This document shows, piece by piece, positions 21,148 through 27,228 of a DNA stretch of 41,669 nt. Position numbers and translations under genes: made by a program. Numbering within the stretch: the first letter of the stretch is position 1; the number at the start of each line of letters is the position of its first letter. Below the pieces are notes generated by a model. It did no database searches and was not told the origin of the DNA. It worked only from the letters and a program-made list of their open reading frames with translations. Source of the stretch: an uncultured Clostridia bacterium (lineage in GTDB: Bacteria; Bacillota; Clostridia; Christensenellales; CAG-917); NCBI GenBank assembly GCA_944360115.1, contig CALVTH010000012.1:1-41669 (forward strand), in the 5' to 3' direction.

Positions 21148-22932
21148 ATGGATTTCTTCAAGACGATTTTCGATGGACTTGTCGGGCTTTCCGAGAAGCT
21201 TCCTTCCGTCGAGGTCGGCGCGTTCGCCGTTGCGGCGTTCGTTGCGCTGATTCTCGCGGCGATCGTCATCGGTCTCACCTTCCTCGGCTCGGGAGCCGCC
21301 AGGTTCACGAGCGCCTGCCGCAGGGTGCTTGCCTATCTCGACGACGAGTCCGCCGTCACCGACGACAATGTCGCGGATTTCACCGCCGAGTGCTTCGGAG
21401 CCAAGGCTCCCGCCGCTTTGCGCGACGGGTGGGTGCAGTTCCTCGGAGTGCGCTTCGGCTATCCCGGCGAAATTGTCTCCGAAAGCGGCGTTTTCGACAA
21501 GGCAGTCAAGCGCAGAGTTAGTCTGCGCGCAAACATATTCATCGGCGTGGCTCTCATCCTCACCGCGTTGTTCGCGTTCTGGGGACTGGGCGCAATCGGC
21601 ACGGCGGGTGTCGGAGTGGTGCTGTGCGGCGGGCTGTTGCTCGCGGCGGTGGGCTACATCGTCCTCGTCGTCGTGGCGAAGAAGCAGTACGACGCCGCCC
21701 TCGCGATGTTCCGCGAAATGCAGGACGCCCTCGACGCCAAGGTGATGTTGCAGGTGGAACGCGATTATTCCGCCGACGCGTCGCCGCTCATCGAGATTGC
21801 TTCCGTGCTGGAAGGCATAGTGTCGCGCAACACGGCGCGCCCCGCGCCCGATTTTGATTTCTCCGTCAAGGAAGACGCCGCAGACGAGGCGACGGAGTCG
21901 GACGACAGCCGCGGCGCCGAAACGGAAGGGGAGACGCCCGTCTACGAAACACCCGACGAAGCAACCGCCGAAGCCTCCGCGGAGAGCGGAGCGGACGACG
22001 GAGCGGACGACATCGAAGAGTCTCACGCCGTTGCCGCCGAGGAAGTCGGCGAAACGGAAATCGAGAGACTTATCGCCGAAAAGGAAGCGACGGATGCCTG
22101 CGCGTGCGCAGATGCCGCGCCCGCGAGCGAAGCGCCTGCCGACGACGCTCCTTTGGAAGAGGTCGCCGAGGAGAGTGCGCTCGCCGAAGTTGTGCACGCC
22201 CCCGCGAGCGACGCGGGCGAAAAGGAAGGCGACGACGACCTCACGCAGGAGGACGGCTTTTTTCCCCTCGGGAGATATAACGGCGGACTGACTGCCGCCG
22301 CACTCTCGGCGGACGCCGAAGAAAACGACGAAGTGTACCGCGGTCAACCGACTGCGGAAGAAATAAAACACGAATACGAGGATGCTATGTTCGGAAGAAA
22401 GAAAAAAGAGCAGGCTCAAGTTGCAGTAGCGCAACCCGTCGATTACGACAACATGACCGTCGAGGCGGAACTCATCCCCGACGACGACGAGGACTATGTG
22501 CTCGTGCGTCCCGGCGTGCGTCCCGCGTCTCTCGAAGGGCTCAACATCGCGGTGCATCCCGCAAGCGAGTCTTCGGTCACGGTCTCTCTCGAACCCGAGG
22601 TCGTCTATGTCGAAGAAAACCTCGACGAGGGCGACGAGGATGTCAAGGCGCCCCGCCTTGCCAAACTTCCCCATCTTGTCGACTATGTGCTGACGATGAA
22701 GATTTCCCGCGGGATGAAGATAAGGGTGGCCATGCTTATGTTGCAGGCGTACAATGTCTTCAAGAACAGCCCCGAGAACAAAGCCATCGTCATTCAGTGC
22801 ATGACCAAGATCATCCAGTCCATTATGGCTGACAGGGCGGCGGAGAAAGCGGCAGCCGAGAAGGCGGCGGCAGAAGCGGCGGCAGCGGAGAAAGCGGCGG
22901 CGGACAAGACCGAGGACGCTCCCGCAGAATAA
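21148..22932 (+). CDS. Unrecognised membrane protein with acidic linker and Ala-rich tail
   Basis: 594 residues; I do not recognise a family. Residues about 25-47 form one membrane helix, then a soluble segment of about 80 residues, then two helices at about 128-148 and 150-174. A cytoplasmic-looking helical part (about 175-230) leads into a long, very acidic Ala/Glu/Asp-rich linker (about 245-400). Residues about 400-560 look more ordered (DEDYVLVRPGVRPASLEGL; an amphipathic C-terminal helix set KAIVIQCMTKIIQSIMADR). The end is a Lys/Glu/Ala repeat (EKAAAEKAAAEAAAAEKAAA). Inference: a membrane scaffold or tether. It has its own strong promoter and a terminator at 23066-23099, so it is monocistronic and probably well expressed. 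Confidence 0.7.
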   Translation: MDFFKTIFDGLVGLSEKLPSVEVGAFAVAAFVALILAAIVIGLTFLGSGAARFTSACRRVLAYLDDESAVTDDNVADFTAECFGAKAPAALRDGWVQFLGVRFGYPGEIVSESGVFDKAVKRRVSLRANIFIGVALILTALFAFWGLGAIGTAGVGVVLCGGLLLAAVGYIVLVVVAKKQYDAALAMFREMQDALDAKVMLQVERDYSADASPLIEIASVLEGIVSRNTARPAPDFDFSVKEDAADEATESDDSRGAETEGETPVYETPDEATAEASAESGADDGADDIEESHAVAAEEVGETEIERLIAEKEATDACACADAAPASEAPADDAPLEEVAEESALAEVVHAPASDAGEKEGDDDLTQEDGFFPLGRYNGGLTAAALSADAEENDEVYRGQPTAEEIKHEYEDAMFGRKKKEQAQVAVAQPVDYDNMTVEAELIPDDDEDYVLVRPGVRPASLEGLNIAVHPASESSVTVSLEPEVVYVEENLDEGDEDVKAPRLAKLPHLVDYVLTMKISRGMKIRVAMLMLQAYNVFKNSPENKAIVIQCMTKIIQSIMADRAAEKAAAEKAAAEAAAAEKAAADKTEDAPAE

Positions 22933-23293: not shown

Positions 23294-24253
23294 TTACTTG
23301 AGGAAGCGTTTCTTCCACAGCACTATGCCGGCAATCAGGCACACCACGACGGATATGCCGATGACCACCCAGAATCCCCATGTCTCGCCCTCGAAAGGCA
23401 CTCCCGTGTTCATGCCCCAGAAGGCGCCTATCATGCTCGGGATGGCGACCAGCAGGGTGAGGGAAGTCAGCACTTTCATGACGACATTCAGGTTGTTGGA
23501 AATGATGGAAGCGTAGGCGTCCATTGTGCCCGAAAGTATGTCGCGGTAGATGTTCGACATCTCGATTGCCTGTTTGTTTTCGATGACGACATCTTCCCAC
23601 AGGTCGAGGTCCTCTTCGAAGAATTTCACCGACTTGGGCAGGCGGTCCAGCACCACGCTGTTGGAGCGCAGGGAGGTGGAGATGTAGACCAGCGATTTTT
23701 CGAGGTCGAGCATTTCGATGAGTTCGGCGTTTTTCATCGATTTTTCCAGCTCGTTCTGCACGCGCTGGCTGGCGCGGTCTATCTGTTTGAGATAGTGCAG
23801 GAATTTCTTGGATATGGTGTACTGCAACTGGATGAGGAAACGGATGCGCTTGTGCAGGTTGATGTCCTTGACGAAGCGTGCCGACAGCATATCGTCGATG
23901 AGGCTGGTTTCCTCCAGACAGACGGTTATCATCGCGTCCGAGGTGGAGATGAAACCGAAAGGCAGGGTGGTGTAGGTGTAGTGATTTTCGTCTTCCACGG
24001 TGAAGGGAATGTCCGTGACGACGAGGACGGCGCCGGTGTCGTCGTCCTTTTCCACACGGGCGCGCTCCTCTTCGTCGAGGGCGGCTTTTATCATATCCTC
24101 GGCGACGCCCGTAGCGCGCGAAATCAGCTCGATTTCCTTGTCGGTGGGGTTGGACATGTGGATCCAATGATCGGCGAAATCGTAGCCCTCGAAGATGATG
24201 TCGGGGTCAACCGAAATGATGCATTTGTTGGCTTTCTTGTAAATCTGGAGCAT
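23294..24253 (-). CDS. corA: CorA-family magnesium transporter
   Basis: 319 residues. CorA forms a pentameric channel for Mg2+ (and Co2+) uptake across the membrane, gated by Mg2+ bound to its cytoplasmic domain. The N-terminal 250 residues are the cytoplasmic alpha/beta and long stalk-helix part. Two membrane helices follow at about 258-280 and 292-312, and the family hallmark GMN sits at 280-282 (WGMNTGVPF, the selectivity loop). The positively charged end KKRFLK is typical. The ATG at 24253 has AAAGGAGG upstream; nine earlier codons are in frame but lack support. Its leader carries a small ORF and a terminator-like hairpin (24275-24355). It is divergent from ppdK. Confidence 0.93.
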   Translation of the reverse strand: MLQIYKKANKCIISVDPDIIFEGYDFADHWIHMSNPTDKEIELISRATGVAEDMIKAALDEEERARVEKDDDTGAVLVVTDIPFTVEDENHYTYTTLPFGFISTSDAMITVCLEETSLIDDMLSARFVKDINLHKRIRFLIQLQYTISKKFLHYLKQIDRASQRVQNELEKSMKNAELIEMLDLEKSLVYISTSLRSNSVVLDRLPKSVKFFEEDLDLWEDVVIENKQAIEMSNIYRDILSGTMDAYASIISNNLNVVMKVLTSLTLLVAIPSMIGAFWGMNTGVPFEGETWGFWVVIGISVVVCLIAGIVLWKKRFLK

Positions 24254-24274
24254 AAGCGTTGCCTCCTTTGCGCG

Positions 24275-24318
24275 ACACAAAACGCCGCGTCGGAGGTTGC
24301 TCCTGACGCGTGCATTTT
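24275..24318 (-). terminator. Terminator-like hairpin (attenuator) in the corA leader
   Basis: On the minus strand the 5' arm runs AAAATGC-A-CGCGTC-A-GGAG (24318-24300), the loop is CAAC, and the 3' arm is CTCC-GACGCG-GCGTTTT (24295-24279). That gives 17 pairs (one G-U) with two bulged A, then GTGT. The 5' arm starts at the leader-ORF stop codon. The U tract is short, so termination strength is uncertain. Confidence 0.6.
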
Positions 24319-24355
24319 ATGGGAGTTGATGCCTACTTCGAGGGTCGGCGTCCAT
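24317..24355 (-). CDS. Putative 12-codon leader peptide of corA
   Basis: ATG at 24355, TAA at 24317-24319, peptide MDADPRSRHQLP. AGAGGTG (24361-24367) lies 5 nt upstream, a better ribosome site than most genes here. The ORF begins about 25 nt into the predicted transcript. Its stop codon overlaps the first pairs of the hairpin at 24275-24318, and its codons 2-3 (GACGCC) could pair with GCGTC in the 5' arm or GGCGTT in the 3' arm, giving a competing fold. The acidic-proline start recalls the enterobacterial MgtL peptide (MEPDP...), whose translation fails at low Mg2+ and so turns on mgtA. This is inference from position and pattern; no homology is claimed. Confidence 0.5.
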   Translation of the reverse strand: MDADPRSRHQLP

Positions 24356-24387
24356 TTTTGCACCTCTGAATGATTTTGTTCCACCTC

Positions 24388-24416
24388 ATACTATCAAAAA
24401 AAAATGCGAAAGGCAA
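24388..24416 (-). promoter_or_regulatory. Promoter of corA
   Basis: On the minus strand, TTGCCT (24411-24416), 17 bp containing a T9 run, TAGTAT (24388-24393). The start near 24381 gives a leader of about 128 nt. Confidence 0.65.
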
Positions 24417-24481: not shown

Positions 24482-24499
24482 ACGGAGAATATTCTCCGT
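24482..24499. promoter_or_regulatory. 18-bp perfect palindrome in the ppdK leader
   Basis: ACGGAGAATATTCTCCGT, followed by TTTATATC, about 20-40 bp into the transcript. It could be an operator for a dimeric repressor or, as RNA, an early terminator-like hairpin. Confidence 0.6.
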
Positions 24500-24582: not shown

Positions 24583-27228
24583 ATGAAAAAGTTCGTTTAT
24601 CAGTTCAAGGAAGCAAGCCAGCTCGATTGCGACAGAAGAGCGCTTTTCGGCGGCAAAGGCGCCAACCTCGCCGAAATGACCAAGCTCGGTATGCCCGTGC
24701 CGCAAGGCTTCACCATCACCACCGAGGCGTGCACGCAGTACTACCTCGACGGTGAGAAAATCAGCGACGAGATTCAGGCGGAAATTATGGAAAACATCGC
24801 CAAACTCGAGAAACTCGTCGGCAAGGAGTTCGGCTCTCTCGACAATCCGCTTCTCGTTTCCGTCCGCTCCGGCGCACGCGCTTCGATGCCCGGCATGATG
24901 GACACCATCCTCAACCTCGGTCTCAACGACGAAGTCGTCGTCAGATTCGCCGAAAAGACGGGCAACCCCCGTTTTGCTTACGACAGCTACCGCCGCTTCA
25001 TTCAGATGTACTCCGATGTCGTCATGGAAGTCGGCAAGAAATATTTCGAACAGCTCATCGACGAGATGAAAGAGAAGAAGGGCGTCAAACTCGACACCGA
25101 ACTCGACGCCGACGACCTCAAGGCGCTCGCCGAGCAGTTCAAGGCCGAATACAAGGCCAAAATCGGCAAGGATTTCCCGCAGGATCCCAAGGAACAGCTC
25201 ATGGGCGCGGTCAAAGCCGTTTTCCGCAGCTGGAACAACGACCGTGCGGTTTACTACCGTCGTATGAACGACATCCCCGGCGACTGGGGCACCGCCGTCA
25301 ATGTCCAGATGATGGTGTTCGGCAACATGGGCGACACCTCCGGTACGGGCGTTGCGTTCTCCAGAAACCCCGCAACGGGCGAGAAGGGTCTCTTCGGCGA
25401 GTACCTCATGAACGCTCAGGGCGAAGATGTCGTCGCCGGCGTGCGCACTCCGTCCCCCATCTCCCACCTCAAGGACACCAACCCCAAGGTGTATGCCGAG
25501 TTCGTCGACATCGTCAAGAGACTGGAAGACCACTACAGGGATATGCAGGACATGGAGTTCACCATCGAGGAAGGCAAACTCTTCATGCTCCAGACCAGAA
25601 ACGGCAAGCGTACCGCGGCGGCGGCAGTCAAGATTGCCTGCGACCTCGTGGACGAGGGTATGCTCGACGAAAAGCAGGCTCTGCTTTCCCTCGACCCCAA
25701 ACAGCTTGACGCGCTCCTGCACCCCCGTTTCGACGAAGCGGCGTACAAGAAAGCCAAGCCCATCGGCAGAGCGCTTCCCGCTTCTCCCGGCGCTGCCTGC
25801 GGCAAAGTCGTGTTCACCGCAGAAGACGCCACCGACTGGGTCGTCAACAAGGGTGAAAAGAGAGTCGTCCTCGTCCGTCTCGAGACCTCTCCCGAAGACA
25901 TCGAAGGTATGCACTACGCGCAGGGTATCCTCACCGTTCGCGGCGGCATGACCTCTCACGCGGCGGTCGTTGCCCGCGGAATGGGCACCTGCTGCGTCTC
26001 CGGTTGCGGCGACATCAACATCAACGAAGAAAAGAAAGTGTTCACCCTCGGCGGAAAGACCTTCCACGAAGGAGACTGGATTTCCCTGAACGGTTCCACC
26101 GGCGAAATCTTCGCGGGCGAACTGCCCACCGTCGAAGCCGAACTTTCCGGTTATTTCGGCAGAATCATGGAATGGACGGACAAGTACCGTGCGCTCCATG
26201 TCAGGACCAACGCCGACACCCCGAGAGACGCCCGTCAGGCGCGTACTTTCGGCGCGGAAGGCATCGGTCTGTGCCGCACCGAACATATGTTCTTCGAGCC
26301 CGACAGAATCATGGCGATGCGTGAGATGATAGTCTCCGACACCGTCGAGAAGCGCGAAAAGGCGCTTGCCAAACTTCTGCCCATGCAGCAGGGCGACTTC
26401 GAAGCCCTCTACGAGGCTCTCGAAGGCACTCCCGTCACCATCCGCTTCCTCGACCCGCCGCTCCATGAGTTCGTGCCCACCGAAGAGGCCGACATCAAGG
26501 CGCTTGCCAAGGATATGGATATGACCGTCGACGCAGTCAAAGCCGTCATCACCGGTCTGCACGAGTTCAACCCCATGATGGGTCACAGAGGCTGCCGTCT
26601 CGCGGTCACCTATCCCGAAATCGCGGTCATGCAGACCAAGGCGGTCATGCAGGCGGCAATCGCGGTGCAGAAGAAGCACCCCGACTGGAAGATGGTCCCC
26701 GAAATCATGATTCCGCTCGTCGGCGAAATCAAAGAGCTTGCCTATGTCAAGGGCGTCGTGGTTTCCACCGCCGACAAGTGCCTTGCGGACGCAGGCGTGC
26801 AGATGAAGTATAAGGTCGGCACCATGATAGAGATCCCGCGTGCGGCGCTCACCGCCGACGCAATCGCCACCGAAGCGGAGTTCTTCTCATTCGGCACCAA
26901 CGACCTCACCCAGATGACCTTCGGTTTCAGCCGTGACGACGCAGGCAAGTTCCTGAACGCCTACTACGAGAAGAAGATTTACGAATCCGATCCCTTTGCC
27001 CGTCTCGACCAGGTCGGCGTCGGCAAACTCGTCAAGATGGCTGCCGAACTCGGCAGGGCAACCCGTCCCGACATTCACCTCGGCATCTGCGGTGAGCACG
27101 GCGGCGACCCCTCCACCATCGAGTTCTGCCACAATATCGGTCTCGATTATGTGTCCTGCTCGCCCTACCGTGTGCCCATCGCGCGTCTTGCCGCGGCACA
27201 GGCGAACATCAAGAACCCCAGAAAGTAA
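24583..27228 (+). CDS. ppdK: Pyruvate, phosphate dikinase
   Basis: 881 residues, the full family length. It interconverts pyruvate + ATP + phosphate and PEP + AMP + PPi in the cytoplasm, and in many anaerobes serves PPi-linked glycolysis. The N-terminal ATP-grasp domain starts LFGGKGANLAEMTKLGMPVP. The swivelling domain carries the catalytic histidine in GGMTSHAAVVARGMG (H459). The C-terminal PEP/pyruvate barrel carries the catalytic Cys836 in GICGEHGG, with the metal-binding stretch MIPLVGEIKEL near 708. The ribosome site is CCGGAGG. Codon use is strongly C-ending and smooth, as in a highly expressed gene. Terminator at 27255-27280. It is divergent from corA. Confidence 0.97.
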   Translation: MKKFVYQFKEASQLDCDRRALFGGKGANLAEMTKLGMPVPQGFTITTEACTQYYLDGEKISDEIQAEIMENIAKLEKLVGKEFGSLDNPLLVSVRSGARASMPGMMDTILNLGLNDEVVVRFAEKTGNPRFAYDSYRRFIQMYSDVVMEVGKKYFEQLIDEMKEKKGVKLDTELDADDLKALAEQFKAEYKAKIGKDFPQDPKEQLMGAVKAVFRSWNNDRAVYYRRMNDIPGDWGTAVNVQMMVFGNMGDTSGTGVAFSRNPATGEKGLFGEYLMNAQGEDVVAGVRTPSPISHLKDTNPKVYAEFVDIVKRLEDHYRDMQDMEFTIEEGKLFMLQTRNGKRTAAAAVKIACDLVDEGMLDEKQALLSLDPKQLDALLHPRFDEAAYKKAKPIGRALPASPGAACGKVVFTAEDATDWVVNKGEKRVVLVRLETSPEDIEGMHYAQGILTVRGGMTSHAAVVARGMGTCCVSGCGDININEEKKVFTLGGKTFHEGDWISLNGSTGEIFAGELPTVEAELSGYFGRIMEWTDKYRALHVRTNADTPRDARQARTFGAEGIGLCRTEHMFFEPDRIMAMREMIVSDTVEKREKALAKLLPMQQGDFEALYEALEGTPVTIRFLDPPLHEFVPTEEADIKALAKDMDMTVDAVKAVITGLHEFNPMMGHRGCRLAVTYPEIAVMQTKAVMQAAIAVQKKHPDWKMVPEIMIPLVGEIKELAYVKGVVVSTADKCLADAGVQMKYKVGTMIEIPRAALTADAIATEAEFFSFGTNDLTQMTFGFSRDDAGKFLNAYYEKKIYESDPFARLDQVGVGKLVKMAAELGRATRPDIHLGICGEHGGDPSTIEFCHNIGLDYVSCSPYRVPIARLAAAQANIKNPRK

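Follow-up and report, generated by a model that had tools for sequence, protein, structure and literature searches.

Enterobacterial leaders are the described case, so far, of Mg2+ being sensed through how stable a ribosome is during translation. Ribosomes of E. coli pause or are dislodged at early Asp or Glu residues that are neighbors or one apart, and in the case of MgtL (EPDP) this happens at low Mg2+ (PMC11282234, PMC11552253). Di-acidic residues by themselves are insufficient for the effect (PMC11282234). For mgtQ of Salmonella, Asp2 and Glu5 are proposed to destabilize the ribosome and thereby to expose the mgtB ribosome site, otherwise held in a stem-loop (PMC8092293).

We describe here a leader upstream of corA in Clostridia that resembles each of the nearest known systems in part. 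It shares with MgtL, the leader of mgtA in E. coli and Salmonella, an acidic and proline-containing start (EPDP in MgtL, D-x-D-P here) and, as we propose, a logic in which complete translation leads to OFF and early drop-off to ON. The two differ in output: the MgtL papers model it as Rho-dependent termination (PMC11282234, PMC11552253), whereas the output predicted here is sequestration of the Shine-Dalgarno sequence or, in relatives, intrinsic termination. Like the mgtQ uORF of Salmonella mgtCBRU, which has 8 codons with acidic codons 2 and 5, the leader is associated with predicted alternative stem-loops, one of which would make the ribosome site of a Mg2+ transporter inaccessible; in mgtQ, destabilization of the ribosome opens that site. 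However, mgtQ lies between two genes, has a PhoP promoter, controls mgtB and is found in enterobacteria only (PMC8092293), whereas the present leader is clostridial and heads a corA transcript that has a promoter of its own; no sequence similarity between them is shown. The enterobacterial uORF corL precedes the same downstream family and its translation is inverse to corA expression and Mg2+-dependent, but it has a UUG start, acts via Rho and is coupled to another RNA fold (PMC11552253). The M-box (ykoK) riboswitch, RF00380, serves the same Mg2+ transporter genes and in some Clostridia stands directly 5' of an acidic leader; unlike the leader it binds Mg2+ directly, without translation, and it is missing from the window genome. 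Finally, Mbox-uORF2 of Mycobacterium tuberculosis (Rv1805A) is a small ORF 3' of an M-box with a conserved N-terminus and one proline, but the peptide is called mycobacteria-specific and an acidic drop-off motif is not proposed for it (PMC12810186). A literature search confined to open-access PMC text brought up no account of leaders of this kind in Bacillota.

The corA leader and its genomic setting

The window, that is the whole stretch of DNA analyzed here, comprises 41.7 kb from a 1.49 Mb draft genome, and its nearest named relatives are uncultured Clostridia bacteria. The elements of the corA leader are listed in Table 1. The original prediction described a consensus-like promoter followed by a 12-codon ORF with a closely spaced ribosome site, and all of these elements are present as described and conserved. 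The comparison of relatives that it called for turned out in its favor, with ORF, ribosome site, promoter, spacing between stop codon and hairpin, and pairing all conserved. Each of the 23 family leaders examined has the promoter layout, 28-39 nt 5' of its ORF; the layout was not found in the more distant G058. The corA transcript is proposed to begin ~25 nt ahead of the mini-ORF. The ORF itself reads ATG-GAC-GCC-GAC-CCT-CGA-AGT-AGG-CAT-CAA-CTC-CCA-TAA, so that the peptide starts Met-Asp-Ala-Asp-Pro.

Table 1. Coordinates of corA and its leader elements in the window.
Feature	Position	Strand	Basis or remark
Promoter: -35 TTGCCT (24416-24411), 17 nt, TG-extended -10 TAGTAT (24393-24388)	24388..24416	(-)	layout common to family leaders
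Leader ORF Shine-Dalgarno AGAGGTG, 5 nt upstream of ORF	24361..24367	(-)	sequence; GAGGTG kept in most of family
Leader ORF MDADPRSRHQLP*, 12 aa, ATG 24355 to TAA 24319-24317	24317..24355	(-)	conserved; pN/pS
Predicted ON hairpin A:B (anti-sequestor), 5' arm A from leader stop codon	24276..24321	(-)	20 pairs, -28.2 kcal/mol
Predicted anti-Shine-Dalgarno CCUCC, in ON hairpin loop region	24292..24296	(-)	pairs corA Shine-Dalgarno in OFF fold; own vs swapped partners
Predicted OFF hairpin B:C (CGCGGCG, loop, UGUCGCG); B is part of ON hairpin 3' arm	24271..24289	(-)	same layout in 20 family leaders
corA Shine-Dalgarno GGAGG	24262..24266	(-)	4-5 of 5 nt paired in OFF fold in 19/20 species
corA, CorA-type Mg2+ transporter, 319 aa (ATG 24253, stop at 23294)	23294..24253	(-)	Pfam PF01544, 6e-50

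The corA gene and a pyruvate phosphate dikinase gene (24583-27228) are divergently oriented; 5' of the latter lies a perfect 18-bp palindrome, ACGGAGAATATTCTCCGT (24482-24499), a possible operator. Elsewhere in the window, positions 21148-22932 hold a 594-aa ORF that is rich in Ala and acidic residues and has no Pfam match.

No Rfam family was found at the corA leader, and the RF00380 covariance model gave no match at the locus or in the window genome. The window genome contains no Nramp protein above the cut-off, and its P-type ATPase matches to the MgtA-type model (TIGR01524) are all sub-threshold; CorA is therefore its sole recognized Mg2+ importer. With regard to possible modulators, no EttA orthologue above the cut-off was found in the window genome, and ribosomal protein L31 is encoded there. 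Both MgtE and the M-box are absent from all leader-bearing family genomes tested. Conversely, the family genomes that have MgtE (G011, G019, G020 and G017) either carry a corA without the leader or have no corA, and in G017 and G020 an M-box precedes mgtE. The leader is absent from some family corA genes (genus g3, G020 and G015), and G015 is an exception in having neither leader nor MgtE. The leader and the MgtE/M-box pair are thus complementary within the family, a pattern among related genomes rather than a set of independent events.

Selection acts on the start of the leader peptide

The mini-ORF precedes corA in all 9 congeners that have a corA match and in most of the family members examined, and a divergent form occurs across Clostridia. 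Family peptides include MDSDHRSCHPLP, MDSDYRSSHNPA, MEADARSSHHLP, MDADPRSSQPLQ, MDADPLSSNKN, MDADPYNSIYID and MDADPLSFFIS. A relaxed leader pattern finds exactly one match in 19 of 60 related genomes, each directly upstream of corA, and no match in the reversed control. The L017 (G012) leader stands in a shifted frame compared with its relatives and extends 6 codons further into the hairpin (MDADPGSCRSNNLYTHSL).

Comparison of synonymous and non-synonymous change reveals purifying selection on codons 2-7, only in the leader frame: pN/pS is 0.31 there, compared with 0.81 and 1.12 when the two alternative frames are read. For codons 8-12 the ratio is 0.95, and it is therefore the N-terminal residues, not the tail, that are selected as peptide. 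The ribosome site is likewise preserved in most of the family, and from this and the selection we infer that the leader is translated. Strong conservation of the RNA structure might suggest that the peptide is functionless and the ORF merely a by-product of that structure. We give this reading almost no credence, since the constraint is specific to frame 0, since lineages whose RNA differs nonetheless have the start codon, the ribosome site and the acidic start, and since none of 180 control genes has such an ORF.

The window leader has Asp2 and Asp4, the latter shared by 22 of 23 family members; congener G006 (MDSVPRS) has Val4 and a single acidic residue. The Asp-x-Asp of the leader fits the early acidic motif at which ribosomes pause on, or depart from, MgtL and other mRNAs (PMC11282234). 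Pro5 is present in the window leader and in 15/23 family members and is replaced in 6/9 congeners, by Tyr, His, Cys or Ala. Proline thus appears not to be essential. With Pro5 lost in these congeners, a single acid in G006 and a more constant Arg6-Ser7, the motif matches the known destabilizing sequence imperfectly. Codon 3 is Ser in 8/23 species, and the competing fold that had been envisaged through pairing of codons 2-3 with either hairpin arm is not conserved.

The variability at position 5 also bears on the idea that the ORF reads charged tRNA-Arg, tRNA-Asp or tRNA-Pro in a conventional amino-acid attenuator. An alternative RNA fold behind a short ORF is what such a device would look like, but the ORF lacks runs of a single codon, congeners exchange the Pro, and the genes downstream are Mg2+ transporters of three types with no amino-acid genes among them, making this reading extremely improbable.

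More constant than Pro5 is Arg6-Ser7 (CGA AGT; 24335-24340, minus strand), with codon 6 being CGA in 19/23 and Ser7 being AGT in 22/23 family leaders. Ribosome drop-off gives no explanation for this codon-level constraint. The fixed codons, better conserved than Pro5, would fit a genuine regulatory leader on which the ribosome does not leave but stalls within codons 4-8 (Asp-Pro-Arg-Ser being one candidate site), in response to Mg2+ or to a general slowing of translation, and operates the same RNA switch. Low Mg2+ does slow ribosomes generally, and in the predicted folds a ribosome at codon 4 frees arm A just as drop-off would. Classical stalling peptides, however, have at least ten residues in the tunnel when they act, whereas the conserved part of this leader is residues 2-7 only, and it is the early Asp-x-Asp that is common to leaders across Clostridia, not Arg-Ser. 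We therefore regard stalling as unlikely, and drop-off at the acidic start remains our preferred reading.

Predicted mutually exclusive folds would couple the leader to the corA ribosome site

Each leader was folded with and without the first ~10 nt past its stop codon. The ON hairpin keeps a fixed register: relative to the stop codon, arm A begins at -3 to +4 nt in all 20 of 20 species, and in the window the first pairs of the hairpin take in the stop codon. When arm A is covered, arm B is predicted to pair with C, and the CUCC-containing strand with the corA Shine-Dalgarno sequence, in the family. This downstream pairing of the 3' arm, with CCUCC against the Shine-Dalgarno sequence, is a competing fold absent from the original prediction. 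The stop-codon hairpin that had been predicted, with 17 pairs, is real and starts at the stop; its proposed role as an intrinsic attenuator is not borne out. In the window species and most of the family it corresponds instead to the ON, anti-sequestor hairpin, and it is the OFF hairpin that would hide the Shine-Dalgarno sequence. The TTTT that had been placed after it (24282-24279) lies within the 3' arm, is unconserved outside the genus and would make a poor terminator tail.

The stop-codon hairpin could in principle still be an intrinsic terminator that is disrupted by translation of the leader, and its GC-rich stem, with UUUUGUGU within and 3' of it in the window species, has something of that character. 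We consider this very improbable: the Us sit in a paired arm, the U-run does not persist outside the genus, and in G014, G058 and L055 the true terminator is a second hairpin to which the first is a competitor. Assignment of the hairpin to the intrinsic-terminator attenuators was likewise rejected, the unpaired conserved U-run of that class not being found here.

Both the ON and the OFF hairpin carry the mark of co-evolving partners. Own halves of the OFF hairpin pair at -22.1 kcal/mol and halves swapped between species at -18.5 kcal/mol, a difference reached in 0/20000 permutations that ignore kinship; for the ON hairpin the values are -19.5 and -13.7 kcal/mol, again with 0/20000 permutations and kinship ignored. 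A duplex test of the Shine-Dalgarno region against its 5' partner likewise favors own over swapped partners, also with kinship ignored. Individual pairings change together, as in GUUUUCUCC/GGAGGAAAC (G009), GGUCUCC/GGAGGCU (G018) and GAGUUUCC/GGAGGCUC (G024). The comparison of own and swapped halves needs no alignment and replaced formal pair counting on MAFFT alignments, which misplace the Shine-Dalgarno sequence because the spacers vary.

In the folding model of the window leader, a ribosome placed at codon 4 leaves the corA Shine-Dalgarno sequence unpaired with a probability of 0.30, and moving it to the stop codon lowers this to 0.00. The direction of the change is the same in 18/24 species, with an equilibrium effect that is modest in some. 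In four congeners (G009, G004, G008 and G001) the OFF fold dominates at equilibrium even when the leader is free (unpaired probability ~0), and there the switch would therefore be kinetic, that is co-transcriptional. On these models, control of corA in the window species and most of the family is most likely translational, by Shine-Dalgarno sequestration. Intrinsic terminators are predicted in some relatives only (G014, G058, L053, L055 and L116). A U-run trails the OFF hairpin B:C in G014 and G058, and strong terminator-like hairpins lie 3' of the ORF in L053, L055, L110 and L116. At L055, UAAGCCAU, which starts at the leader stop codon, and AUGGCUUA of the terminator 5' arm are complementary. 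One sensor thus appears to be joined to a translational or a transcriptional output, relative by relative.

Acidic leaders of Mg2+ transporter genes across Clostridia

Outside the family, 29-35 of 80 named corA loci have an acidic-proline mini-ORF with a Shine-Dalgarno sequence within 320 nt upstream, compared with 0.1-0.3% of dinucleotide shuffles; among 180 starts of other ORFs at these loci there is none. Examples are MDCDPGGSS in Ruminiclostridium, MDADPGEK in Acetobacterium and Eubacterium aggregans, MEGDPRGRSC at loci titled Ruthenibacterium, MDDYPSK in Pumilibacter and MDPDEDN in Christensenella UBA genomes.

A search made independently of corA, for GGAG, a gap and ATGGAYNNNGAYCCN in 293 genomes of the class, returned 45 places against ~18 in the reversed control. 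Thirty loci were inspected; a short ORF begins in 22, of which 14 lie ahead of Mg2+ transporters: CorA in 11, MgtE in 2, and in one an MgtE_N/CBS gene followed by an Nramp-type transporter. The mgtE cases are L153 and L164, and the MgtE_N/CBS and Nramp operon is that of L150/L185. The C-terminal part of the L149 leader, which precedes corA (GLFAVPFTSVV), resembles that of the leader of the Nramp-type operon at L150 (SLFAVPIVLPV), a likeness that suggests a shared RNA element or exchange of a module.

Several loci have an M-box 5' of the acidic ORF, both before corA (L080, L081, L094, L095, L102, L146-L148 and L159-L161) and before mgtE (L153 and L164). Such tandems may represent two-layer sensing of Mg2+ on one transcript. 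At L072 (2187-2501) an M-box is followed by a GTG ORF starting MDSSPLP, a one-acid leader variant outside the motif.

Discussion

The computational analysis shows the ORF, selection on its codons 2-7, both predicted folds, their fixed register with the stop codon, and the association with Mg2+ transporters and the M-box. We consider it likely that the window carries a Mg2+-responsive leader peptide that attenuates corA at the level of translation, acting through ribosomes that drop off early. In this reading the leader would be translated, would respond to Mg2+ and would shed its ribosome. At high Mg2+ the ribosome would translate M-D-A-D-P-R-S... through to the stop codon and, parked there, would cover arm A, such that B:C and CCUCC:GGAGG pair, switching corA OFF. 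When Mg2+ is low, the ribosome would be destabilized at about codons 2-7 by the acidic N-terminus of the nascent chain and would leave. Arms A and B would then pair once both are made, locking CCUCC in the A:B hairpin and opening the corA ribosome site (ON). The same logic would hold in those relatives where a B:C hairpin with a U-run acts as an intrinsic terminator. Of the MgtL-like logic first suggested for a Bacillota corA, the conserved acidic/proline leader and the exclusive folds set by ribosome position are retained, and the intrinsic hairpin as switch is not.

Assignment to MgtL proper was considered and rejected: the downstream gene is corA and the predicted output is Shine-Dalgarno sequestration. 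The leader is filed as a variant of acidic leader peptide control of Mg2+ transport and is not a member of the MgtL or corL family. More broadly, the balance of the evidence leans towards a widespread class of Mg2+-sensing leaders in Clostridia in which drop-off at an early acidic motif controls three unrelated transporters (CorA, MgtE and Nramp-type) by sequestration or intrinsic termination. Its members would often stand behind an M-box, so that Mg2+ is read twice per transcript, by RNA and by the ribosome.

The occurrence in Clostridia of the same early acidic motif, with unrelated RNA and sometimes beside an M-box, suggests that the ribosome is a convergent or an ancient Mg2+ sensor. These Clostridia probably sense low Mg2+ by ribosomes leaving the mRNA. 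If true, this would explain how CorA is controlled without an M-box where it is the only recognized Mg2+ importer, and the dozens of natural leader variants would offer a means of learning which residues make a ribosome fall off.
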